Origin: a virus
Direction: 5' to 3' (one strand)
DNA length: 25,027 nucleotides
Virus record (IMG/VR): IMGVR_UViG_3300028835_000771
Span: 1-25,027 of that record
Made by a program: the position numbers and the translations under genes. Under the pieces are notes generated by a model. That model saw only the letters and a list, made by a program, of their open reading frames with translations. It had not been told where the DNA came from and ran no database searches. Below are positions 1 to 16,226 of this stretch, piece after piece; within the stretch, counting starts at the first letter, position 1, and each line of letters starts with the position of its first letter.

Positions 1-438
1 ACATTGTGGATGTTTGACCTTATAGAGAAGTTCGAACTTGTTCCAGTTGAGTCCGTGTTGTGGAAAAATTTGGAACACGCTCCCATAAACTTAAGTAGGA
101 TGCGAATCCAAACTGGTGATATGTTTGAATATCGTTCTGATTTCAGTCTTATGCATTATATGTATGTTTTAAGCAGTTATGATGGTCAGAGGTCGCTTTT
201 TAAAATTGAAGATTATAGTGCTATTGTAACATATTTTGGACTTGATAGGGCTAGTTCGAGTCGTACTTCTAATCGTTATGGTTTTATTACTCCAAGATAT
301 ACAGAAAGTCAGACGTTAAACTTTACGAGGAAAAAAATGTTTCCAAACTTTCATGGACTTTATACAGAAGTTCCAGAATCTAATTTGGCTTTTTCAGTAG
401 ACAGGAGGTTACTTAATGTTCAAAATAGTTGTCAATGA
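1..438 (+). CDS. Hypothetical protein, 5' end outside the window
   Basis: The reading frame is already open at base 1, so this is probably the C-terminal part (about 145 residues) of a longer gene. A TTG at 4 and an ATG at 10 exist, but neither has a ribosome binding site that can be seen. The visible part is soluble, rich in aromatic residues (Phe, Tyr, Trp), with no membrane segment and no motif I recognise. Its 3' end overlaps the start of the JAB peptidase gene by 23 bases, and the AGGAGG for that gene lies inside this one, so the two are probably translationally coupled. In PRTRC-type ubiquitin-like operons an E2-like protein is one of the partners, but I see no cysteine motif here to support that role. 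Function unknown. Confidence 0.6.
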   Translation, partial: TLWMFDLIEKFELVPVESVLWKNLEHAPINLSRMRIQTGDMFEYRSDFSLMHYMYVLSSYDGQRSLFKIEDYSAIVTYFGLDRASSSRTSNRYGFITPRYTESQTLNFTRKKMFPNFHGLYTEVPESNLAFSVDRRLLNVQNSCQ

Positions 439-1429
439 TGGAAAAAATGAATTGCCTGATGATGATATTTACTATATTATTGCAAAAGGAGGAATTTATT
501 TAAAGAAAAAAGTGGGAATCCTTGAGAGTATTGCACCTGTTAATCAAATTTCGATCTTAGAAGAAATTGAGCCAATAGCAGAATTAAACATTCGGAAAAT
601 TCCTGCTGAAAAGTTCGCTAAGATATTAGAATTCTTCAAACAAGTTTATAGTTTAAAGAAAAGTGAGGCATGTGTCCTTCTACATTATAATATGAATAAA
701 AAAAGATATATACTACAAGTTCCTCCACAAGAAGTTTCTTATGCTGGAATAGACTATATTAAGAATGTTCTATATGATGGATATGATTTGATAGGTTCTA
801 TTCATAGTCATGGATCAATGTCAGCTTTTCACTCTAGTATCGATCATATGGACGAAAAGCATTTTGATGGACTGCATATAACAATAGGTAATGTAGATAA
901 ACAATTTGTGTCAGTTTCTACTTCAATCATGTCAAATGAACATAGGTTTAATGCAAGTTCATCTAAATATATAGATGGCTTAGAATTAGTCGAACATACT
1001 CCCTGGTGGCCATCGATGTTTAAACCAGGTTTTAAAGTAGTTAATGGAAAGAAAAAATATAAGAAAAATGTTAAAAGTAAACTTGGATATACAGTTCTTG
1101 CAAGTAATGAAGAAAAAAAGTTTGACAAACGATGGCTTAATTTTGTTAAGTCGAAGAAATATGCTAGAGGTTATCAAGTAGGGACTAGTTATCTAAAAGA
1201 TCTATATAAAAATTTACAAATGGGTACTACACGAAATGTTAAAGACGTTGTGATGTTTGAGCAGGGATCTCAGATTAAAGATGAGAAACAAGAGTATAGT
1301 CCTTGTTCAGACTGTCTTTTTAGAAACTTTAAAGTTGAACTTGCTATGAATGACTTAATAGAATCAAAGGAATCAGAAACCGGAGAGGTTGATTTGTCAC
1401 CTGACTTTATGGGTGACTTTATGGGGTAG
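416..1429 (+). CDS. JAMM/JAB-domain metallopeptidase (deubiquitinase-like, PRTRC-A-like)
   Basis: 337 residues. A JAB/MPN+ domain spans about residues 60-170 with the full zinc-peptidase signature: Glu84, then H130-S-H132, seven residues, Ser140, two residues, Asp143 (HxH-x7-S-x2-D). Enzymes of this fold cleave isopeptide bonds or trim the tail of ubiquitin-like proteins. The rest is unfamiliar: a Lys-rich stretch around 205-245, a lone CxxC pair at Cys297/Cys300, and a repeated DFMG at the C-terminus. The start is supported by AGGAGG at 402-407, eight bases before the ATG. It is followed ten bases later by an E1-like gene and then a ubiquitin-like gene, which fits processing or removal of that modifier. 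The metal-binding residues are seen directly; the substrate is inferred from neighbours. An alternative is a RadC-like or tail-assembly JAB protein, but no NlpC/P60 domain is present. Confidence 0.85.
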   Translation: MFKIVVNDGKNELPDDDIYYIIAKGGIYLKKKVGILESIAPVNQISILEEIEPIAELNIRKIPAEKFAKILEFFKQVYSLKKSEACVLLHYNMNKKRYILQVPPQEVSYAGIDYIKNVLYDGYDLIGSIHSHGSMSAFHSSIDHMDEKHFDGLHITIGNVDKQFVSVSTSIMSNEHRFNASSSKYIDGLELVEHTPWWPSMFKPGFKVVNGKKKYKKNVKSKLGYTVLASNEEKKFDKRWLNFVKSKKYARGYQVGTSYLKDLYKNLQMGTTRNVKDVVMFEQGSQIKDEKQEYSPCSDCLFRNFKVELAMNDLIESKESETGEVDLSPDFMGDFMG

Positions 1430-1439
1430 GAGGATATTA

Positions 1440-2132
1440 ATGAAAACAGTAAATATTAAAATTATTGGTTTAGGTGGTGTTGGGTCTGTTCTTTCTGAGA
1501 AAGTATGTAGGTTTGTAGAGCACTTGCAAGACTTCCAATCTTCAATCACTCTTGTTGATGGTGATGCCTATGAACGTAAGAATCTTGAACGACAAGAGTT
1601 TTTAGAGTTTGGTAACAAAGCCACAATTAAAGAAGTTGAGTTAAGTCGTAAATTTAGTGGAATAAATATCAGTCACATTCCTTATTTTGTTAATGAAGAA
1701 ATAATCTCAGAAGTAATTAAAGAGAATGATACAGTACTCTTAGGAGTAGATAATCACAAAACAAGGAAGTTAGTTTCTGATTTTTGTAAAGAGTTACATG
1801 ATGTAACTCTTATTTCGGGCGGAAATGAGTTTACGGATGGGAATGTCCAAATTTATGTTAGAAGGGAGGGTAAAGATTTAACACCGGACTTAAGTTCTTA
1901 TCATCCAGAAATACAAAATCCAGTTGATAAATCGCCTGATGAGATGTCGTGCGAGGAGTTATCTCAATCGGAACCACAGTTATTCTTTACTAACTTAGGC
2001 GTAGCAACTATTATGTGTTGGGCATTTTATAATGTTGCTATAAAAGAAAACTATAAGTTTTCTGAGATTTATTTTGATGTTTTAACAATGTCAGCTGACT
2101 CGAAGTTTAGATCAGTAAAACGAAGGAGGTAG
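1440..2132 (+). CDS. ThiF/E1-family adenylyltransferase (ubiquitin-activating-like, PRTRC-type)
   Basis: 230 residues. A Rossmann-type E1 domain: nucleotide loop GLGGVGS at 10-16, acidic Asp40/Asp42, then NLERQ at 48-52 (the Asn/Arg/Gln signature of MoeB/ThiF/E1 proteins), and GVDN around 102-105. Cys171 in the segment MSCEELSQSEPQ is a candidate thioester cysteine; the following FFTNLGVATIM region resembles other PRTRC ThiF proteins as I recall them. Such proteins adenylate the C-terminal glycine of a beta-grasp modifier. The ATG at 1440 is chosen over an in-frame ATG at 1389 because GGAGG lies just upstream of it and the Rossmann strand starts at once. The ubiquitin-like gene begins three bases after the stop codon. 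The family call is firm; that the neighbour is its substrate is inference. Confidence 0.9.
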   Translation: MKTVNIKIIGLGGVGSVLSEKVCRFVEHLQDFQSSITLVDGDAYERKNLERQEFLEFGNKATIKEVELSRKFSGINISHIPYFVNEEIISEVIKENDTVLLGVDNHKTRKLVSDFCKELHDVTLISGGNEFTDGNVQIYVRREGKDLTPDLSSYHPEIQNPVDKSPDEMSCEELSQSEPQLFFTNLGVATIMCWAFYNVAIKENYKFSEIYFDVLTMSADSKFRSVKRRR

Positions 2133-2135
2133 TAA

Positions 2136-2624
2136 ATGTCTACATATACAAAAGAGCAACTGGAAGCGAAGACAGCCGCAGAACTGAAACAAATGTGTGT
2201 TTATAATCTGAACATTCCTGGAATGTCTAAGAAAAGGAAAGACGTTATTATTGGCGCCATCCTTGAGAACCAGGGTGTACCTTCAGTAGCTCCGAAGACT
2301 GACACACCGAAGACTGACAGACCGAAGGTTGACCAGAGAGTAACTGCTATGGCAGCCTCTTTTGAAAGTCGTCTTACGAAACCTGCAAATCGTAAAGGTG
2401 ATAGGACTACTACAACTGTCCGAGTTTCTTGTGGCGCTTCTTCTGGTGATTTTGACTTGGCTAATAAAACTGTTGGTGCCGTTGCGGAGTTCTTGAAAGA
2501 AGTTCTGAATGTGGACCGACTAGCACAGGGTATTGTTAACGGCAATCCTGTGACCGATAGTTATATTCTGAAGCCAAATGATACACTTGAGTTCTTGAAA
2601 ACAGCTGGATCAAAGGGCTGCTAG
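2136..2624 (+). CDS. Ubiquitin-like beta-grasp protein with N-terminal SAP/Rho-N-like domain (PRTRC-C / Prok_Ub-like)
   Basis: 162 residues in three parts. Residues about 9-47 have the helix-turn-helix pattern of SAP or Rho-N-like domains (AELKQM...IPGMSKKRKDVIIGAI). A linker follows with three tandem 5-residue units (PKTDT, PKTDR, PKVDQ), encoded by 15-base repeats starting at 2292, 2307 and 2322. Residues about 92-162 look like a small beta-grasp domain ending VNGNPV...LKPNDTLEFLK and then TAGSKGC, close to the GTKG-type ends of prokaryotic ubiquitin-like (PRTRC protein C) families. The final Cys after the last Gly would have to be trimmed, perhaps by the JAB peptidase, if Gly is the activated residue. 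It has an excellent AAGGAGG site. The gene is visibly richer in GC than its neighbours (32 of 60 bases at 2281-2340 against 16 of 60 at 661-720). Confidence 0.75.
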   Translation: MSTYTKEQLEAKTAAELKQMCVYNLNIPGMSKKRKDVIIGAILENQGVPSVAPKTDTPKTDRPKVDQRVTAMAASFESRLTKPANRKGDRTTTTVRVSCGASSGDFDLANKTVGAVAEFLKEVLNVDRLAQGIVNGNPVTDSYILKPNDTLEFLKTAGSKGC

Positions 2625-2639
2625 AGAACTAGTTTGTTG

Positions 2640-2664
2640 GGGACTGGTTATTGTAACCAGTCCC
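2640..2664 (+). terminator. Perfect 11-bp hairpin after the ubiquitin-like gene
   Basis: GGGACTGGTTA, loop TTG, TAACCAGTCCC: 11 uninterrupted pairs, 15 bases after the stop codon. It lacks a proper U-tract (TTACTACTT follows), so it may act as a leaky terminator, an RNA-end stabiliser or a processing site rather than a full stop. Confidence 0.5.
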
Positions 2665-2693
2665 TTACTACTTAAAACAAAGGAATTAGAAAG

Positions 2694-3303: not shown

Positions 3304-3558
3304 ATGGCCTATGATGAAAAGAAGGATATTTTGATAAAAATGATTGAGATGAAACAGGGAGATTCGTCGCTCCATTTTTCAGTCTTCTCTTACGACGGCG
3401 GAGAAGCGAAACTTCAGATCTCCAGGATGTTTCAGAAAAAAGATGGAACAGCTTCATACTCGAAAGTTGGACGACTTACGAAAGAGGAAGTTAAGTTCTT
3501 TTTAGACCATTCGGAGGGAATTTTGGAGTTAATAAACAATTTTGAAAGTAGTCGATAA
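3304..3558 (+). CDS. Small protein, possibly PC4/YdbC-like nucleic-acid binder
   Basis: 84 residues. The ATG at 3304 is chosen because GGAGGG lies at 3294-3299; a TTG at 3292 would overlap that site. The sequence reads like a small beta-sheet domain followed by one helix: KLQISRMFQKKDG, then KVGRLTKEEVKFFLDHSEGI. The strand, strand, (K/R)xG-x-LT-x-EE helix order faintly recalls PC4/YdbC single-strand-binding domains, but the match is weak and made by eye. The codons are less AT-rich than the surrounding genes, as in the ubiquitin-like gene, which may point to high expression. It lies upstream of the second E1-like gene. Confidence 0.75.
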   Translation: MAYDEKKDILIKMIEMKQGDSSLHFSVFSYDGGEAKLQISRMFQKKDGTASYSKVGRLTKEEVKFFLDHSEGILELINNFESSR

Positions 3559-3610: not shown

Positions 3611-4468
3611 ATGTATTCTTGTATAGCTATTATTGGTCTTGGAACTCTTGGTGGTTTTGTAACTGACTCGGTCTCAGAGCTAGAAACTGTGGAAGAAATA
3701 GTTATAGTAGACTATGACCAAGTACAAGAGAAGAATCTAAGGAATTCAATTTATAAGTGGAATGATGTTGGAAAACTGAAAACTGACGCTCTTTTTGATA
3801 TTATTCGTTCAAAGAATGAAGATATAAAAATAACAAAACTGAATGTGCGATTTATAGAAGAAGAAAATGTTCTTCCAGTTTGTGATCTAGTATTAGATTG
3901 TAGGGACTTTGTATATGATAGAAAAGAGTTGGTAGATGTTAGATTATATATCTCTTCAAGGTATATGATAGTTGACTGTAGGAAGAATGTGAAATATGAC
4001 AAACATTTTGAAGGAAGATATACTAGTAGCTTATCAAAGAGTGACCTTAGAAATGCAGCGAATATGGTTTTAGTACTGATTGAAAATGGTGTTATTTCTT
4101 CTTCAATTAGAGACAACAATGTAAGTAAGTTTGACTTAGACTACCTAAAACAAATGAACCAAAAAACAGACGATGTAGCTTATGATACTGTAGTTGGAGA
4201 AGAAAAGTTAATAAATTTGAGAGAAAATTTACTTCCAATACTTAAGATGAATAAGAAGTCAGACTTAGATGTGAATATGTGTATTGGTGAGAAGAACGTT
4301 TCTGTTAAAACTATACCCAGAGGAGCGTTAAGATCGGGAGAAGATGTTATTGTTAACTTAACGTCGATGTTAAATTTACCAGTAATATTTAATAACTTTG
4401 TAATATCAACATACGAAGAGGAGAACAAAAGTTATGTAGTATTAATTCCAGAAACTGGGGCTGCATAA
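3611..4468 (+). CDS. Second ThiF/E1-like adenylyltransferase
   Basis: 285 residues. The N-terminal half is a clear E1/ThiF Rossmann domain: GLGTLGG at 9-15, Asp34/Asp36 at the end of strand 2, NLRNS at 42-46, VGKLKT at 53-58 and DLVLDCRD at 92-99. It differs from the first E1 of this window: the usual NxxRQ is NxxNS, so the catalytic arginine may be lost or replaced, and no obvious thioester cysteine stands in the usual place (Cys91, Cys97 and Cys123 are the nearby ones). The C-terminal 90 residues are unfamiliar and end ...PETGAA. The stop overlaps the next start (TAATG), so it is translationally coupled to the E2-like protein. The E1-fold call is firm; whether it is active, and on what, is open. 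Confidence 0.8.
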   Translation: MYSCIAIIGLGTLGGFVTDSVSELETVEEIVIVDYDQVQEKNLRNSIYKWNDVGKLKTDALFDIIRSKNEDIKITKLNVRFIEEENVLPVCDLVLDCRDFVYDRKELVDVRLYISSRYMIVDCRKNVKYDKHFEGRYTSSLSKSDLRNAANMVLVLIENGVISSSIRDNNVSKFDLDYLKQMNQKTDDVAYDTVVGEEKLINLRENLLPILKMNKKSDLDVNMCIGEKNVSVKTIPRGALRSGEDVIVNLTSMLNLPVIFNNFVISTYEEENKSYVVLIPETGAA

Positions 4469-5169: not shown

Positions 5170-7890
5170 ATGCCAAAAATTTTGGATTATAATAAATTCT
5201 GTGAAGATCTAAAAGAAGTTACTTCAGTTAAAATTATGTTAAAGAAAAGATTTCATCCAGAAGGTTTGTTTTCAGAGCAAATTTTTGGACCAGTGAGAAA
5301 CTATACTTGTCAATGTGGAACATATTATGGAGTTTCTAGATCTGGTGGTACATGTAAGATTTGTAATGTCGATATTGTAAACAGTTATGAGAGAAGGAAA
5401 CGATTTGCTAAGATAACATTACCAATACCAATAGTTAATCCGATGTTCTATGACTTAGTTGTTAGCGTTGGAGGAAATGACATAAGGTCTGTCATTGATA
5501 TGTTAATGAAAAATGATAAAAGTGTTCTCTATATGGACGGAGAAGACCACGTTGTTACAAGTAATCCAGATAAAGTTCCAAAGAAAGTTCAGACATGGGA
5601 AAAGTTCGAAGCAATCCAAAAGGTAGTCTTAGACTTAGCAACTAATCTTGCAAGTGAGGGTTTTAAAGATTGGCAACTAATTAAGAACAATATTGACATG
5701 CTTTTTATTAACCATATAATAGTTCTTCCACCAGATTTAAGACCGGCCTCTAAAGGTGTAAGCAAAAACAATCAAGTAGTTGATAAGATCAATAGATATT
5801 ATGTACAAATACTTACAAAAAAAGAGATAATGAAAGGTACTATCATTGATATAGGTAGAGACAAAGTTTTGTTTTATACTTATTTTAAACAATTACAAAA
5901 AGATGTTAACGAATTGTATTATCATATTCTTGACAAACTTTCGAAGAAAGAGGGTCTTATTAGGGGAAATATACTAGGGAAACGAATTGACTTTTCAGGG
6001 AGAGCAGTAATCGTTCCAGATCCAACCTTAAACTTAAATGAGTGTGTTATTCCGTATTTAATGTTTTTAGAAATGTTTAAGATTCCAGTTGCAAAGAAGT
6101 TACTGGAAATTAGAAGGTTTAAGTTATTAAATAGAGCAATTGATTTTGTTGATGAATGTATTAAACAAAAATCACCTGTTCTTTTTAAAATTTGTGAGGA
6201 GTTGTCAAGAGATGAAGTATGTATTTTGAATAGACAACCATCTCTTCATCGACTTGGAATGTTAGGTTTTAATATTAAGATTAGTTTAGACTCAGTAATT
6301 AAAATTCATCCGCTTGTTTGTTCTCCGTTTAATGCAGATTTTGACGGAGACCAGATGGCAGTTTATATTCCAATATCAGAGGCAAGTAAGAGAGAAGTTA
6401 GAGAGAAACTTTTTGTTAGTAAGAACTTAAGCAGTCCCGCTAATGGGAGTCTTACTACTCCTCCAGGTCAAGATATGGTGTTGGGGATCTTTAGTCTAAC
6501 AAATAATCAGTTTTCAAATTTAAGAGAGGAGACTTCTTGTAAGGGAAGTATGGTTTCTAAGGGGATAAAGATTTTTAATGAATGTTTACCAGAAGATTAT
6601 CCTCTAATAAACGAACCTGTAAATAAGAAGAAGTTGTTAAAGATCTTAAATGATATTAAATCTAGATATAACGAAATAGTTACTATGGAAATACTAGATA
6701 ATATAAAAAGAGTGGGTTTTAAATATTCTACATTATTAGGAACAACAATGTCATTAGGTGATTGTTTTTTCGAAGATTCTGAAAATGTAAAAAGTTTATT
6801 ATACTCACCTGAGAATATTAGGACTCAGTTAACTAATATTTCTAGTAAAGAAACGGAGGAACTTCTAAAAAAGAATTTTACTTATTCTTATTTAGTTGAG
6901 TCTGGTGCGCGGGGAACTTGGGACCAAGTACGGCAAATTATTCTTACAAGAGGATTTATATCAAACTTTAGCGGAGAAATTTTACCAGTACCAATTAAGA
7001 ATAGTTTATTAGATGGTTTAGATCAACAAGAATTTTTTAATTCAACTTATGGTTGTAGGAAAGGACTATTAGATGTAGCACTAAATACAGGCACATCAGG
7101 TTACCTTTCAAGAAAACTGATATTTACTTGTGTAAATTTACAAATTGATTTAGAATTAGACGACTGTGGAACATCTGATTGTTTAGAGGTTTATATAAGC
7201 AATTCAAAGAAAGCAGAGATGTTAGTTTGGAGATATTTTCTAGAAAATAATGAGTTAAAACAAATTACTCCTGAGAACTGGAAAGGTTTTATTGGAAAAA
7301 CAATCCGTTTAAGAAGTCCAATATTTTGTACGAGTCCAAAGATTTGTCATAAGTGTTATGGTGACCTTTACAAAATACTTCATAGTAGATTTATTGGAGT
7401 AATCGCCGCTCAGTCACTTGGAGAACGAGGAACGCAACTTATTCTTCGTACTTTTCATACATCTGGTTCAGCAGTTATCAAGGGTATTAGTGACGACGCC
7501 AGTATTGATATGAAACAAATGGATATTGTTGCAGATTTGTCTGTAATTTCAGGCTTATTACATCAGTTTAAAGATAAAACTCATGAAGATATAGTTTCTG
7601 AATTATTTGACGTGTATAATAGTAGTGGTCAGGGAATCCACCATGTCCACTTTGAATGTGTAGTTTCACAGTTAATGTGGAAGAACTTAAAGAAGTGGCG
7701 TCTTTTGTCTAATCGAGACAAAGTGTCTCCAGAGTTCCATAGCGTACAAACAGTTCCTAGTTATGAGTCATGGTTATTAAGTTTAGCTTTCTCAAATCCG
7801 AAACGAAGTATTCTCCGAGGAATCTTAAATACTGACTCATATCGAGGGATTATGGACAAGATTTTAGAGGGAGAGAAAGTAGATGGATAA
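5170..7890 (+). CDS. rpoC: DNA-directed RNA polymerase beta-prime subunit, phage-encoded, unsplit
   Basis: 906 residues, shorter than the roughly 1200-1400 of bacterial proteins. It carries the bacterial-type landmarks in order: PEGLFSEQIFGP near 30; N-terminal zinc ribbon with Cys47, Cys49, Cys62, Cys65; GKRIDFSGRAVIVPDP; RQPSLHRLGM; the magnesium-binding NADFDGD at 388-394 (Asp390, 392, 394); PGQDMVLGIFSLT; bridge-helix region YGCRKGLLDVALNTG; trigger loop TSGYLSRKL near 641-649; second zinc site with Cys666, Cys720, Cys726 and Cys729; and GVIAAQSLGERGTQL near 743-757. In the last motif Arg753 stands where bacteria have Pro (GEPG). AAGGAG lies ahead of the ATG. Jumbo phages related to phiKZ and AR9 have beta-prime split into pieces; this one is a single gene. 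It catalyses RNA synthesis with the beta subunit encoded just downstream. Confidence 0.97.
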   Translation: MPKILDYNKFCEDLKEVTSVKIMLKKRFHPEGLFSEQIFGPVRNYTCQCGTYYGVSRSGGTCKICNVDIVNSYERRKRFAKITLPIPIVNPMFYDLVVSVGGNDIRSVIDMLMKNDKSVLYMDGEDHVVTSNPDKVPKKVQTWEKFEAIQKVVLDLATNLASEGFKDWQLIKNNIDMLFINHIIVLPPDLRPASKGVSKNNQVVDKINRYYVQILTKKEIMKGTIIDIGRDKVLFYTYFKQLQKDVNELYYHILDKLSKKEGLIRGNILGKRIDFSGRAVIVPDPTLNLNECVIPYLMFLEMFKIPVAKKLLEIRRFKLLNRAIDFVDECIKQKSPVLFKICEELSRDEVCILNRQPSLHRLGMLGFNIKISLDSVIKIHPLVCSPFNADFDGDQMAVYIPISEASKREVREKLFVSKNLSSPANGSLTTPPGQDMVLGIFSLTNNQFSNLREETSCKGSMVSKGIKIFNECLPEDYPLINEPVNKKKLLKILNDIKSRYNEIVTMEILDNIKRVGFKYSTLLGTTMSLGDCFFEDSENVKSLLYSPENIRTQLTNISSKETEELLKKNFTYSYLVESGARGTWDQVRQIILTRGFISNFSGEILPVPIKNSLLDGLDQQEFFNSTYGCRKGLLDVALNTGTSGYLSRKLIFTCVNLQIDLELDDCGTSDCLEVYISNSKKAEMLVWRYFLENNELKQITPENWKGFIGKTIRLRSPIFCTSPKICHKCYGDLYKILHSRFIGVIAAQSLGERGTQLILRTFHTSGSAVIKGISDDASIDMKQMDIVADLSVISGLLHQFKDKTHEDIVSELFDVYNSSGQGIHHVHFECVVSQLMWKNLKKWRLLSNRDKVSPEFHSVQTVPSYESWLLSLAFSNPKRSILRGILNTDSYRGIMDKILEGEKVDG

Positions 7891-8143
7891 TTTTGATATA
7901 TCTAGATTATTAGAAGGCTTAGAAAATATTTCTGAACAAAGACGACAAATAAGAGGAAAACTATTTAAGTTTGTACGAGATTATTATTCGAGTAGTAAAT
8001 ACTGGAACTCGGGATTAGAACGTAAAATGTCATTTAACTATTTATCTGATTACTCTGATGGTGGTCTATTAGGAATTTGTAAAGGAATTTACGATAACCT
8101 TCCAGAAGATTTAAAACTAGAGTGTGGAGGAAAAAAATATTGA
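7883..8143 (+). CDS. Small hypothetical protein between beta-prime and beta
   Basis: 86 residues, charged N-terminus (LLEGLENISEQRRQIRGKLF) then a Tyr/Ser/Asp-rich half; no motif or membrane segment. Its ATG overlaps the end of the beta-prime gene by eight bases with GAGGGAGAG ahead of it, and its stop TGA overlaps the TTG start of beta. The nested overlaps on both sides mean its expression is tied to the two polymerase subunits, so an accessory or assembly role is plausible. Function unknown. Confidence 0.7.
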   Translation: MDNFDISRLLEGLENISEQRRQIRGKLFKFVRDYYSSSKYWNSGLERKMSFNYLSDYSDGGLLGICKGIYDNLPEDLKLECGGKKY

Positions 8144-11142
8144 ACATAAAGAACCCATATTTTAAAGTTAATAAGGAACAGAATATCTTCGTTATAAGAG
8201 AACGAGAATATTCTGAGATATTAGAAAATGTTCGAGAAATCTTAAAACCAGTAGAAGAACTTGGATTTACTATTGCTGAACTTGATCTCCGAGAACACAA
8301 GTTCTCGTCTGGTGAATTAAATAAAACGTTAAGAGAAAATCTAGTTATTCGACTTCAGAAAGGAAATTCTGAAGTAGATTTAAGTATGTTAATACCAAAA
8401 CTAGTTGACCACAATTATATCGTTATTAATGGTCGAAAGAAGATACCACAATTTCAATTAATAGATACTCCCATAGTTACAAGAGGTCAAACTATTAAAT
8501 TACGGACAAACGTTGCTACACTGACAATTTCTGAAGAAAAAGAGGCTCCATTTATCCAGTCAACTTTTTTAAATAAAAAAGTTTCTTTGGCACTTTTGAT
8601 GTTTTCATATTTTGGTCCTGAAGAGTTGGAGAGAAGGTATAATCTTTCTAATTTAAAACCTGAAAGTGATTCTTTAATTGGCAAATTGATGAGTGATTTG
8701 AAAACACGTGAAACTGAGTCTAAAGGGATGACGCAAGACGACTTTATACCAGAGTTAGGAAGGAATTATACAAAATTTAATCCTAAGTCAAAAGGGGAAG
8801 ATATTGTATATGCCATTGACTTAGTATTAAAAACAGATATCATGACAAGAAGATTTTTTGAGAAGGACAACATTCTAGACGAAGTGATATCTGTAATTGA
8901 GAAAGAAGAGCTGGATGACACATTATTTACTAATAAAAGAGTACGATGTTTCGAATATATGGTATTATCGAAAGTGTCAAAAGCAGTTTTTGACTTATGT
9001 TTATCTAATAGAACTACAAGACAGCCAAAGTTTAATGTTAACTCAACGCAGATTCTTTCTGAGTGCAATGTTTCTGATATTGTTCAGTTTGACTTTTCAA
9101 TTAATCCAATAGAAGAGTTAACGAAATTATCTAGGATAAGCCTTCTGGGTCCAGGCGGTTTTAAAAGAGAGAATGTTCCAGCCCATCTTCGAGATATTTA
9201 TCCATCAATGATGGGAAGGATATGTCCAGTTGACACGCCAGACCGAGATAATTGTGGTGTGTTACAAGATTTACTTCCAAACGTAAAACTTGACGAGAAC
9301 CTAAGGTTCACCGAAGAAATTTTAGATAAACAACCAGTTTCAGTACCTGTTTCGTTTATTCCATTTCTAGAACATGATGATCAAACTAGACTACAAATGG
9401 CTTCGTCGCAGATGCGACAGGCTATTATGTTAAAAGAGTTTGATGTACCAATAGTCCAGTCTGGTTGTGAAGGGTTGTTCACTGATTATACTCAATTTGT
9501 AAAGAGAGCTAAAAAGGATGGAGAAGTTATTTATCAAGATCCTAATTTTATAATAGTTATATACGACGATAAAGATATTGACATTTTTGATATATCATAT
9601 AGAAAGATTTACGTTGAAAACATGGACTTTATGAACGTTTATGTTAGAGTGGGTGATAAGTTTAAAGCAGGAGATATTTTAGCAGAAAGTAATTTTTGTA
9701 TGGGTGGAGAAGTACAATTTGGAAAAAATCTTTTAACAGCTGTAATGTCCTATTATGGAAACAATTATGAAGATGGTATTGTAATATCAGACCGATTAGT
9801 TAAAGAAGGAGTTTTTACCTCTGTACATTATAAAGACCTATCTTTTACATTGCCGCCAAACAAAGTCCTTTTGAGTCTCGATGAGGAAAAGTATAAACCA
9901 CTTCCAGATATGTATGAGACGATTGAGGTTGGAAAACCGTATGCAATTATGAAAGAAATCTCGTCTGAAAATCATTTTTCAGTTTTTGAAGAAAAAACTA
10001 AATTAGAGGCACAAAAGAAACTTATTATAACTGAAGTTAATATTTATCCGAATATTTGGAATGACGAGATACCAGAGTTTAGACGATGGATAGAAACTAG
10101 GATTGAAGAACAACAAAAGCGGGAAAATTATTTTAAACAGGTCTTAAAAGATTCCTTATCGAAAAACGTTGCTTCTAGTTTTATACGAGATAAAGGACTA
10201 GATAAATTTTCATTTGTTGAAAAATATAAAGTAAAAAAAGAACGTATAAATGGGGTACGTGTTGAAATGTTTGGAGTCTATTTTAGACAGATCCAAGTTG
10301 GTGATAAGATTGCAAATAGACATGGAAATAAAGGAGTGATCTCTCAAATTGTAGAACATGAAAAGATGCCACAGTTAGAAGATGGAAGACATGTTGATAT
10401 ATGTATTAATCCTCTTGGAATAATTTCAAGAATGAATATTGGTCAATTATATGAGTTACATTTAGCGATGTCATTAGAAGACTTGAAAGAGGAGATCTTG
10501 AAGAGAATAAGAGACGAAAAATATGACAATAAAAAAGTTAGAAAGTACTTGTTCGATTATATTAAAATAATTGATAATACCGAAGAAAATTGGTATACAA
10601 AACAATTTATGGAACAATGTCCAAAAGTAATAGATGAGAACTTTATTAAGAATCTTACTTTAATACAACCTCCTTTTGAGTCTGTAACTAGAAGTCAAAT
10701 TGAACAAGCTTTAGAGTATACAGAAACTATGCCAAAGTATAAGATTTTTGACCCAGTTTCAAAAAGTTTTCTTGAGAATGATATTGCTGTAGGTTTTATT
10801 TACTTCTTTAAAATGATCCATATTGCTGAAGAACGACTAGCGGCTAGAGGAATTGGGTCGTATGCAAGGAGGACATTACAACCTCTTGGTGGAAGAAAGA
10901 ATAAGGGTGGTCAAAGATGCGGTGAAATGGAAACAGCTTGTTTAATTGGCCATGATGCTCCAGTTGATCTCCATGAATTTCTTACAACTAAGTCTGACTG
11001 TATTGATTTAAAGAATGACTATATCCGAAATTTTATCGAAGCTGACTTAGTACCAAGGGAAGAGGAAATTGATGCTACTCCAGAATCTGTTAAGTTGTTA
11101 AAAGCCTACTTAACTGCTATAGGTGTAGTAAGTCAGAGGTAA
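8140..11142 (+). CDS. rpoB: DNA-directed RNA polymerase beta subunit, phage-encoded, unsplit
   Basis: 1000 residues from a TTG at 8140. This start is preferred over GTG at 8122 because GGAGG (8126-8130) sits nine bases ahead of it and would be inside the gene otherwise. Bacterial-type landmarks in order: GPGGFKRENVPAHLRDIYPS and GRICPVDTP near 337-367; NLLTAVMSYYGNNYEDGIV at 530-548; KIANRHGNKGV around 723-733; INPLGIISRMNIGQLYELHL; and QPLGGRKNKGGQRCGEMETA near 914-933. These build the active-site half contributed by beta. It is a little shorter than the bacterial protein. The gene order is beta-prime, then beta, the reverse of bacterial rpoBC. No alpha or sigma gene is seen in this window, so the enzyme either uses unrecognised phage partners or recruits host ones. 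Confidence 0.97.
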   Translation: MNIKNPYFKVNKEQNIFVIREREYSEILENVREILKPVEELGFTIAELDLREHKFSSGELNKTLRENLVIRLQKGNSEVDLSMLIPKLVDHNYIVINGRKKIPQFQLIDTPIVTRGQTIKLRTNVATLTISEEKEAPFIQSTFLNKKVSLALLMFSYFGPEELERRYNLSNLKPESDSLIGKLMSDLKTRETESKGMTQDDFIPELGRNYTKFNPKSKGEDIVYAIDLVLKTDIMTRRFFEKDNILDEVISVIEKEELDDTLFTNKRVRCFEYMVLSKVSKAVFDLCLSNRTTRQPKFNVNSTQILSECNVSDIVQFDFSINPIEELTKLSRISLLGPGGFKRENVPAHLRDIYPSMMGRICPVDTPDRDNCGVLQDLLPNVKLDENLRFTEEILDKQPVSVPVSFIPFLEHDDQTRLQMASSQMRQAIMLKEFDVPIVQSGCEGLFTDYTQFVKRAKKDGEVIYQDPNFIIVIYDDKDIDIFDISYRKIYVENMDFMNVYVRVGDKFKAGDILAESNFCMGGEVQFGKNLLTAVMSYYGNNYEDGIVISDRLVKEGVFTSVHYKDLSFTLPPNKVLLSLDEEKYKPLPDMYETIEVGKPYAIMKEISSENHFSVFEEKTKLEAQKKLIITEVNIYPNIWNDEIPEFRRWIETRIEEQQKRENYFKQVLKDSLSKNVASSFIRDKGLDKFSFVEKYKVKKERINGVRVEMFGVYFRQIQVGDKIANRHGNKGVISQIVEHEKMPQLEDGRHVDICINPLGIISRMNIGQLYELHLAMSLEDLKEEILKRIRDEKYDNKKVRKYLFDYIKIIDNTEENWYTKQFMEQCPKVIDENFIKNLTLIQPPFESVTRSQIEQALEYTETMPKYKIFDPVSKSFLENDIAVGFIYFFKMIHIAEERLAARGIGSYARRTLQPLGGRKNKGGQRCGEMETACLIGHDAPVDLHEFLTTKSDCIDLKNDYIRNFIEADLVPREEEIDATPESVKLLKAYLTAIGVVSQR

Positions 11143-11174
11143 GGTTGTTTCTAATAATGAGAGGAATAGACTTG

Positions 11175-12050
11175 ATGAAAAAAGATGATTTACCTGATAT
11201 TCAAGAAACAAGACCGAGAATTGAGATTCCAATTCAACAAGTAGGAGTTGAGAATGTAGAAATCCCATTTGAACTTGAATCGAAGTACGGTGGTTTTACT
11301 AGTCTAGTGGCAAACGTCTCAATGCGAACGAGTTTAGACTCTTCAATAAGAGGAATCTCGATGTCAAGGTTATTACTCACTTTAAAAAAGTATTTAGATA
11401 GACCATTAAAACATGTTTTAATAAGAGAGATTTTAGAAGACTTAAGAGTCAATATTGGTTCAAAAACTAGTTTTATGAAGTTTGAATTTAGACTTCCAAT
11501 AACTAAGAAGTCACTAATTTCTAACAATGAGTTTCCAATTTATTACAAATGTAGATTTGAAGGTCAGTTGATTAAGTGGCTATCCGCTGGTACCAAAGAC
11601 ATTCCTCTCTTCAAGTTTTTTCAAGGAGTTAAAATACAATATACATCGTACTGTCCATGTTCGGCGGAACTTTGTAATAACTTAGTAGAGAAGGGAGCTA
11701 CTGGATTTCCTCATGCACAAAGATCTTATGTCGATGTCTTAGTTCAAGTAGTAGAACGGCATTATGTTTGGTTAGAGGACATTATCGAAACAATAGAAAG
11801 TGTGGTAAAAACTCTTCCATATCCAATAGTAAAACGAATAGATGAACAAGAGATTGCTAGGATTGCGTCAGAAAATCCGCTTTTTGTGGAAGATGCAATA
11901 CGAGAGATTTCTAACGCCTTTAATAAACGAGAGGACTTTTATGATTGGATTATTAAATGTACCCATGAAGAATCAATTCATACTTCTGAGGCTATTGCTG
12001 TGAACTGGAAAGGAGTGAAAGGTGGGTTTGACGAAACATATTATATTTAA
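11175..12050 (+). CDS. folE2: GTP cyclohydrolase IB (FolE2/MptA type)
   Basis: 291 residues, T-fold enzyme converting GTP to 7,8-dihydroneopterin triphosphate, the first step of folate and of queuosine/7-deazaguanine synthesis. Landmarks: DLPDIQ near the N-terminus; CPCSAELC from Cys160; FPHAQRS with His180; VKRIDEQ...NPLFVEDAIREI with Glu239; and EESIHTSEAIAV near the end, all matching the FolE2 pattern including the catalytic Cys and the metal-binding His and Glu. The ATG at 11175 is preferred because AGAGGA precedes it and the conserved LPDIQ follows; ATG 11157 and TTG 11145 are possible but poorly served. It follows the polymerase beta gene by 32 bases in the same direction. Base composition matches the neighbours. 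No queC, queD or queE partner is in view. Confidence 0.93.
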   Translation: MKKDDLPDIQETRPRIEIPIQQVGVENVEIPFELESKYGGFTSLVANVSMRTSLDSSIRGISMSRLLLTLKKYLDRPLKHVLIREILEDLRVNIGSKTSFMKFEFRLPITKKSLISNNEFPIYYKCRFEGQLIKWLSAGTKDIPLFKFFQGVKIQYTSYCPCSAELCNNLVEKGATGFPHAQRSYVDVLVQVVERHYVWLEDIIETIESVVKTLPYPIVKRIDEQEIARIASENPLFVEDAIREISNAFNKREDFYDWIIKCTHEESIHTSEAIAVNWKGVKGGFDETYYI

Positions 12051-14990: not shown

Positions 14991-16226
14991 ATGAACAAGA
15001 AAATTCTTGGTTTAATACTTATCGGTGTCGTTATAATTGTCGGTCTTATTTTAGGGGGTAGCCTTATTGAAACTGTAGAAAAGGGGACGTATCAAGTAAA
15101 ACAAGCTGCTGTATCTGGAAAAATGTCCGCTAAAATGGACCCTGGGTTATGGTTCCAGATGTTTGGTGATATTGAACCTTGGCCAAAGGCAGAAACTTTC
15201 TTCTTTACAGCTGATATATTAGAAGGAGAAAAAATAGATCAAAGCATTGAAGTTAGATTTGTAGATGGGTCATTATGTAATCTTTCTGGAACTCTACGTA
15301 TTATTCTTCCAATTACGGAATCTGAAGCGATTTCTTTAACGACTGTACGTGGACATAAAAAGTATAAAGATATGGAACAGAAATTGATTCTTCCTACAAT
15401 CAGAAATGTTTTAAGGTTAACAGCAAACCTTATGACTGCTAGAGAAAGTTATTCTACACAAAGGGCTGACTATGTAATGTGGGCTAGGGACCAGATTATA
15501 AACGGTTTGTACCAGACTACTGCTATAGAAAAGAAAATAAAAGATTTGGTTTCTGGTGAGATGGTTACCAAAACGTTCAAAGTAGTAAAAGTAGATGAAA
15601 ATGGGAACCCTCTCTATCATCCTAATCCTCTAAAGGGGACTGGTATTCGTTTGCAGAACTTTGAAATTAAAAAGTTTGTTTACGAGAAAAAGGTAAATAA
15701 CCAGATCGCCACTCAACAAGAAGCGTTAATGGCGGTTGCAACTGCTAAAGCAAAAGCTCAGGAGGCCGAACAGAATAAACTAACTCTTGAGGCACAAGGT
15801 AAAGCAAATGTAGCGAAAGCCCGATATGAAGAGGAACAAATTAAAGTTCGGGCTGTAGTTGTTGCTAATAGAGAAAAGGAAGTTCAGGTTATTGCTGGTG
15901 AACAGAGAAAAGCAGTAGCTAAACTTGACAAAGAAGCAGCTGCATTAACAAAGCAACAACAGATTCTTCTTGGACAGGGTGAAGCAGAAAGGAAACGGCT
16001 AGTACTAGCTGCTGATGGTGCCCTAAAACAGAAACTTGAAACCTATGAGAAAGTTATGTCGATATGGGCTGATGCTTTTTCTAAAAGGAAAGTTCCTTCT
16101 GTTATAATGGGAGGAGGAGGTGTTGATGGAGATGCATTGTCTATGTCAGACGTTATGTCGCTAATGGCAATGAGACAATTAGGATTAGATCTCAGTATTC
16201 CAAGAGGAGCAACTGTTGGTAAGTAA
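14991..16226 (+). CDS. SPFH/band-7 (prohibitin/flotillin-like) membrane protein
   Basis: 411 residues. One N-terminal membrane segment (about 5-24, LGLILIGVVIIVGLILGG), an SPFH domain (about 25-235) and a long Ala/Glu/Lys/Gln-rich coiled coil (about 240-350, e.g. AVATAKAKAQEAEQNK), then a short Gly-rich and Met-rich tail. This is the layout of HflK/prohibitin/flotillin proteins, which form oligomeric rings or cages on the inner membrane face and regulate proteases or membrane domains. AGAGGAG lies ahead of the ATG. A small membrane coiled-coil gene follows after a hairpin, suggesting a partner. Family assignment is solid; its purpose in the phage (membrane remodelling, superinfection control, protease control) is unknown. 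Confidence 0.88.
   Translation: MNKKILGLILIGVVIIVGLILGGSLIETVEKGTYQVKQAAVSGKMSAKMDPGLWFQMFGDIEPWPKAETFFFTADILEGEKIDQSIEVRFVDGSLCNLSGTLRIILPITESEAISLTTVRGHKKYKDMEQKLILPTIRNVLRLTANLMTARESYSTQRADYVMWARDQIINGLYQTTAIEKKIKDLVSGEMVTKTFKVVKVDENGNPLYHPNPLKGTGIRLQNFEIKKFVYEKKVNNQIATQQEALMAVATAKAKAQEAEQNKLTLEAQGKANVAKARYEEEQIKVRAVVVANREKEVQVIAGEQRKAVAKLDKEAAALTKQQQILLGQGEAERKRLVLAADGALKQKLETYEKVMSIWADAFSKRKVPSVIMGGGGVDGDALSMSDVMSLMAMRQLGLDLSIPRGATVGK

Follow-up and report, generated by a model that had tools for sequence, protein, structure and literature searches.

Closest described systems and the phage locus

To our knowledge, the bacterial ubiquitin-like protein (Ubl) conjugation systems with a tested role all act against phages (CBASS Cap2/Cap3 and Bil). 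The type 6d operons described by Iyer et al. 2006 (PMC1779556) encode an E1, an E2-like protein, a JAB protein that has an N-terminal domain, and a small Ubl whose C-terminal Gly is conserved. We take these operons to correspond to the PRTRC cassettes, an equation of our own. Here we describe an E2-JAB-E1-Ubl cassette in a stretch of 25,027 bases from IMG/VR virus record IMGVR_UViG_3300028835_000771 (positions 1 to 25,027; G+C 30-40%), hereafter called the window. The window virus is a tailed phage, since it encodes a T4-type terminase large subunit, a tape-measure-like protein and the RNA polymerase genes rpoC and rpoB; this agrees with a first-pass annotation, made from the sequence alone, which had proposed a phage with its own RNA polymerase.

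We interpret the cassette as a phage-encoded, reversible Ubl-conjugation system, with a probability of about 0.72. This interpretation draws on what was observed, namely the genes present, their homology and synteny, the invariance of the catalytic residues and purifying selection; the catalytic steps themselves are predicted from knowledge of the protein families. Compared with the first-pass annotation, the analysis added an E2-like partner, a second E1 that lacks the catalytic cysteine, the fusion of the Ubl to a HeH/Rho_N domain and a wide syntenic conservation.

Organization of the cassette

The following elements belong to the cassette:

1-438, plus strand: C-terminal end (about 144 amino acids) of a gene of about 840 amino acids that the window edge truncates; in relatives it encodes an E2-like N-terminal domain (phmmer matches to full-length genes in L003-L038)
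416-1429, plus strand: JAB/JAMM peptidase related to PRTRC_A, 337 amino acids (Pfam Prok-JAB, NCBIfam PRTRC_A, invariant JAMM residues)
1440-2132, plus strand: E1/ThiF-type Ubl-activating enzyme, 230 amino acids, ATG at 1440 (Pfam ThiF, PRTRC_ThiF, invariant Cys171)
2136-2624, plus strand: Ubl modifier, 162 amino acids, with an N-terminal HeH/Rho_N-like domain, a C-terminal beta-grasp domain and the end KG(C)
2148-2273, plus strand: HeH/Rho_N-like domain of the Ubl, possibly nucleic-acid-binding (Pfam Rho_N; Foldseek to Rho)
2400-2618, plus strand: beta-grasp Ubl domain; codon 2616-2618 encodes Gly161, the invariant end, and Cys162 is dispensable
2639-2665, plus strand: stem-loop directly 3' of the Ubl gene (z-score -3.9)

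The gene order is E2-JAB-E1-Ubl, and the cassette begins before the window. The genes are closely packed: the upstream E2 gene ends at 438, within the JAB gene, which starts at 416 (an overlap of 23 nt), and gaps of 10 and 3 nt separate JAB from E1 and E1 from Ubl. The first-pass annotation had placed an operon of three adjacent genes, JAB, E1 and Ubl, at 416-2624. All three are adjacent and packed at exactly that position; however, the operon is larger, with an E2-like gene upstream, and the second E1 (3611-4468) lies outside that interval. Stable hairpins of differing sequence recur at the site of the stem-loop in nearly all relatives, and the cassette therefore probably ends there; the stem-loop probably either terminates the cassette transcript or stabilizes the RNA.

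JAB peptidase and E1

The JAB protein matches Prok-JAB barely above the curated Pfam cut-off (1.8e-5) and PRTRC_A more strongly (NCBIfam, 1.4e-12); the latter match covers residues 20-172 and thus includes the region preceding the JAB core. The JAMM signature noticed in the first pass is complete, and its residues Glu84, His130-x-His132, Ser140 and Asp143 are invariant among 20 aligned sequences. The closest PDB sequences are those of the proteasomal deubiquitinase RPN11 (0.002), and the JAB protein is predicted to be a Ubl-processing and deconjugating enzyme. Prok-JAB is the sole Pfam domain found in it, NlpC/P60 being absent.

The last point bears on whether the cassette might modify or process the virion or tail proteins of the phage itself, as the lambda tail-assembly JAB/Ubl pair would suggest. 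Lambda-type gpK and gpI couple a JAB protein with a Ubl (PMC1779556), and Salmonella phage Arash has distantly related E1 and E2 genes that are labeled 'structural protein' and have further structural genes close by, although the label may be the depositor's annotation only. The lambda-type layout (JAB-NlpC/P60, no neighboring E1) is not that of the window, where the JAB gene adjoins an E1 gene, and the neighbors of the cassette in the RNA-polymerase lineage are rpoC and rpoB, not tail genes. We regard such a role as distinctly unlikely.

The E1 matches Pfam ThiF at 1.6e-18 and PRTRC_ThiF at 1e-9. Its E1/ThiF signature is as complete as the first reading had it: the glycine loop G10-x-G-G-x-G15, the residues N48/R51/Q52 and the catalytic C171 are invariant among 24 sequences.

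E2-like upstream gene

Based on the C-terminal part of the upstream gene and on its relatives, we infer that this phage possesses an E2 domain. The first ~300 residues of the full-length proteins match Prok-E2_D (PF14460), a family of predicted E2 enzymes of bacteria: of 35 related records, 5 score above the Pfam cut-off and 30 reach E<=1, the strongest single match being that of L024 (2.2e-7). Asn181 and Cys189 (L003 numbering) do not vary across 36 sequences of phage and cellular origin, and their N-x7-C spacing is that of classical E2s (UBC9 N85/C93). The phage and cellular E2 domains align with a profile probability of 99.9. The AlphaFold model of the domain is confident (predicted local distance difference test, pLDDT, 89.6; predicted template modeling score, pTM, 0.77), and a Foldseek comparison with viral structure models returned unnamed or uncharacterized phage proteins only. 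A candidate E2 role is thus supported by the Prok-E2_D profile matches and the invariant Cys; it is not confirmed by fold.

Ubiquitin-like modifier

The Ubl protein has no direct match to a Pfam Ubl family. The beta-grasp fold attributed to it earlier is nevertheless borne out: hhalign aligns the C-terminal domain with the Ubls from cellular operons of this type at a probability of 99.8, and the domain shows a weak MoaD-like profile match; for the AlphaFold model of the protein, Foldseek consistently finds TGS, MoaD, SUMO and ubiquitin, all with weak E-values. The N-terminus matches Pfam Rho_N just below the cut-off (3e-5; 24.4 bits against 24.9). In the alignment of 31 phage Ubls, an N-terminal domain resembling HeH/Rho_N is joined by a linker to a beta-grasp domain with a (P)AGxKG end. 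A search of the window Ubl against 50,697 phage records gave no match.

The first-pass annotation had the protein ending in GSKGC. The KG end is conserved; the final Cys is present in only 8 of the 31 phage Ubls, the window included, and the invariant end is Gly161. No residue follows the invariant Gly in 21 phage Ubls, while YK and VILTK follow it in one each; cellular relatives have freely variable residues there (LAA, R, LGA and others). An end of this kind is what a processed modifier would be expected to show. Because these residues are variable or absent, the functional end is likely Gly161 and not Cys162.

Some members encode tandem head-to-tail Ubls, all ending at the same KG (two copies in L011, four in Bacillus phage KLEB27-3, three in Vibrio phage D69 and two in a Cytobacillus plasmid). 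This arrangement resembles the precursor pattern of polyubiquitin and would require a processing peptidase. In Bacillus phage vB_BauM_KLEB27-3 (L041:2718-3425), the four repeats, each terminated by KAGVKG, lie upstream of the E2, JAB (PRTRC_A) and ThiF genes; in Vibrio phage D69 (L040:4388-5179), the three Ubl-like repeats have GTKG ends and lie upstream of E2, JAB and E1-like genes.

Second E1-like protein

A further E1-like gene lies downstream of the cassette:

3611-4468, plus strand: second E1-like (ThiF) protein, nucleotide-binding motifs retained, catalytic Cys absent, ETGAA end (Pfam ThiF, 2e-13)

The second E1 retains the glycine loop, D34-x-D36, N42, K57 and a DCRD motif, and comparison of profiles aligns it with the first E1 (probability 95.7). 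It was found beside the cassette only in RNA-polymerase-linked loci. Its ETGAA C-terminus is conserved in most relatives. The idea that its C-terminal domain is a hidden Ubl was rejected (hhalign probability 0.3-2.3).

Proposed conjugation pathway

In the proposed pathway, the first E1 would adenylate the C-terminal Gly161 of the Ubl, hold the Ubl as a thioester on Cys171 and hand it to the E2-like domain at its invariant Cys; this domain would then attach the Ubl to target proteins, at lysines or other groups. The JAB peptidase would trim the residues that follow Gly in some members, split tandem Ubls and remove the Ubl from its targets, and the Cys-less second E1 would probably assist the first one as a pseudo-E1. 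Several observations count against this interpretation: the E2 domain proper falls outside the window, a Foldseek search of the E2-like model against PDB gave no significant match to the UBC fold, the Ubl tail is xKG and not GG, and neither an E3 nor a substrate was identified.

Distribution and selection

Relatives were collected as a first-round set of 36 viral loci (34 once duplicates were removed) and by a profile-based scan, which gave at least 144 viral contigs with an E1 relative, of which 80 were mapped; the two sets overlap in contigs. The first-round loci all possess JAB, E1, second E1, rpoC and rpoB (34/34), and 33 of the 34 possess a Ubl; the exception is L034, where a frameshift appears to have carried the Ubl into the second E1. 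Among the mapped contigs, 63 of 80 contain E2, JAB, E1, Ubl, second E1, rpoC and rpoB, five have no recognized E2 (some being cut by contig ends) and one is the contig of L034. The other 11 contain E2-JAB-E1-Ubl alone; one or two of these are short pieces, and three are the contigs L201 (527 kb), L208 (459 kb) and L209 (340 kb), in which RNA polymerase genes do not adjoin the set and weak ParB-like genes lie elsewhere. Phages of the lineage that encodes its own RNA polymerase thus carry the syntenic E2-JAB-E1-Ubl set as a fixed component, and viral contigs of more than 500 kb contain similar sets. The text of a review of 224 jumbo phages nowhere mentions ThiF, JAB, E1-like or PRTRC. Among the titles listed by searches of the open-access literature, none describes a phage-encoded E1-E2-Ubl set, although these searches did not cover subscription papers and preprints, and priority is not established.

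In a quick E1 tree, 34 of 35 RNA-polymerase-linked sequences cluster, together with one Patescibacteria sequence (support 89), which makes a single origin of the cassette in this lineage likely, if not firmly shown. The E2-JAB-E1-Ubl core also occurs, with no RNA polymerase, in genomes classified as Patescibacteria, Methylomirabilota, Chloroflexota, Lentisphaerota and Thermodesulfobacteriota, the Ubl being recognized in some of the Thermodesulfobacteriota copies only. In one cellular locus (L082), a ribosomal protein gene is close to the cassette. Phage-type copies were further found in bins called Thermoplasmatales, Heimdallarchaeota and Woesearchaeota (L053, L054, L088), with RNA polymerase in L053 and L088; these are probably misbinned viral contigs or leads to archaeal viruses, and they gave no host assignment.

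The only sets found among cultured phages were distant E2-JAB-E1 sets, in KLEB27-3, in Vibrio phages of the D69 type and in Salmonella phage Arash. The Arash genes gp248c-gp246c (L042:1519-4539) encode E2-like, JAB and E1-like proteins; the E2-like and E1-like ones bear the annotation 'structural protein', perhaps via virion proteomics, and no Ubl was recognized beside them. An Acinetobacter 'phage' match (L043) was dropped, being an ordinary moeB among housekeeping genes. The cassette makes it testable whether bacterial viruses use Ubl tagging for their own ends, and Bacillus phage KLEB27-3, with its four-fold Ubl precursor, and Vibrio phage D69 offer cultured entry points.

The ratio of nonsynonymous to synonymous substitutions (dN/dS, NG86) against the nearest relative, L003, is 0.19 for JAB, 0.11 for E1, 0.08 for Ubl and 0.04 for the second E1, values that are rough since dS is near saturation; other pairs give 0.06-0.27. 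The cassette genes are under purifying selection. Because their order recurs in dozens of contigs and dN/dS is low, the cassette is far beyond chance. PRTRC-like cassettes are common on plasmids, and capture from a plasmid or host followed by decay, with no function in the phage, could be imagined; we consider such a passenger highly improbable given the dN/dS values against L003, the invariant active sites and the fixed gene order.

The distribution also bears on a possible use as a weapon, in which conjugation would be directed, as in Bil, at the structural proteins of a superinfecting phage, or else at defense proteins of the host. Large phages carry many conflict genes, and the cellular relatives of the cassette are scattered as accessory operons. 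Conjugation of Ubls by Bil interferes with phage assembly, according to the title of Hor et al. 2024 as cited in PMC13373217. However, a whole set adjoining rpoC/rpoB in 63 of the 80 mapped loci fits a core function, not an accessory one, and PADLOC found no Bil component in the window at E<0.01 (BilD reached 0.075, with the second E1 only). A weapon thus appears rather unlikely.

Neighboring genes and possible targets

The conserved neighbors of the cassette are the RNA polymerase genes:

5170-7890, plus strand: RNA polymerase beta' subunit (906 amino acids), outside the cassette proper; recurs in relatives
8122-11142, plus strand: RNA polymerase beta subunit (1006 amino acids), identified by translation; recurs in relatives

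Given the HeH/Rho_N domain of the Ubl and the position of the cassette beside the RNA polymerase genes, we favor proteins of nucleic-acid-bound complexes during infection, possibly the transcription machinery, as targets; this is a tentative guess, and the rpoC/rpoB synteny is a weak pointer to the substrate. The tagging of host or virion proteins raised in the first-pass annotation is conjectural. A bolder version would have the Ubl cascade as a core phage function that modifies phage or host transcription machinery, with a heterodimeric E1 like those of eukaryotes and a Ubl that brings its own nucleic-acid-binding domain, and this we think unlikely.

Other genes nearby include a FolE2-type GTP cyclohydrolase (11145-12050, 3e-65), a gene at 14991-16226 whose product looks SPFH/prohibitin-like by eye only, and a gene for a small protein at 3304-3558 that by eye only resembles the PC4 transcription cofactor fold and that some members of the lineage keep. 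In the RNA-polymerase lineage, genes for a radical-SAM protein (~342 amino acids, L003:1484-2518 and its equivalents in other loci) and a WYL_2-like protein occupy a fixed position upstream of the E2 gene.

The radical-SAM gene and the nearby FolE2 would suit a sulfur carrier of the ThiS/MoaD pathway type, in which the E1 makes a Ubl thiocarboxylate for tRNA or cofactor sulfuration and the Ubl is trimmed by the JAB peptidase; the E1 and Ubl also resemble MoeB/ThiF and MoaD/ThiS. Sulfur transfer is less likely because 14 contigs of up to 207 kb yielded neither a rhodanese nor a cysteine desulfurase, although host enzymes could supply the sulfur. Moreover, the unit includes an E2-like protein with an invariant Cys, and tandem Ubl precursors are typical of modifiers. 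Taken together, we find a sulfur carrier improbable.

Comparison with known systems

Among the described systems, the phage set is closest to the PRTRC (Iyer type 6d) cassettes, yet it falls outside PRTRC membership because all scores are below the cut-offs, PRTRC_C is missing and ParB is absent from most contigs. The relatedness proposed in the first pass holds at this level. The window JAB scores 47.6 bits against a PRTRC_A equivalog cut-off of 101.8, and matches to PRTRC_A in 22 of 22 large phage contigs include none above it. The window E1 reaches 38.1 bits against 144.75 for PRTRC_ThiF, and the E2 of relatives 22 bits against 131 for PRTRC_B. The window Ubl has no match to PRTRC_C, and no PRTRC ParB was found in 17 of the 22 large contigs, the other five having weak ParB-like matches below the cut-off elsewhere. 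The same four predicted activities are present in both: the JAB protein resembles PRTRC_A over most of its length, the E1 resembles PRTRC_ThiF, and the E2 of relatives resembles Prok-E2_D/PRTRC_B. In contrast to PRTRC, the phage Ubl is fused to HeH/Rho_N, the E2 lies within a protein of ~840 amino acids, and there is an extra Cys-less E1 and a linkage to a viral RNA polymerase.

The nearest sets by sequence and gene order are unnamed cellular E2-JAB-E1-Ubl operons (Patescibacteria, Methylomirabilota, Chloroflexota, Lentisphaerota), which, unlike the phage set, have no RNA polymerase, no second E1 and mostly no N-terminal domain in the Ubl. The lambda/T1 tail-assembly proteins gpK (JAB+NlpC) and gpI (Ubl) are likewise a phage-borne JAB and Ubl; however, they come with no E1 or E2, in another context and with another JAB architecture. 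Assignment to a named defense system was rejected, PADLOC yielding generic E1-E2 matches only. Like Bil (BilABCD) and Bub, the phage set unites a bacterial-type Ubl, an E1, an E2-like protein and a JAB protein in one operon. BilD consists of an inactive and an active adenylation domain (PMC11354881). The phage pair of an E1 and a Cys-less E1 recalls BilD, from which it differs in being two separate single-domain proteins.

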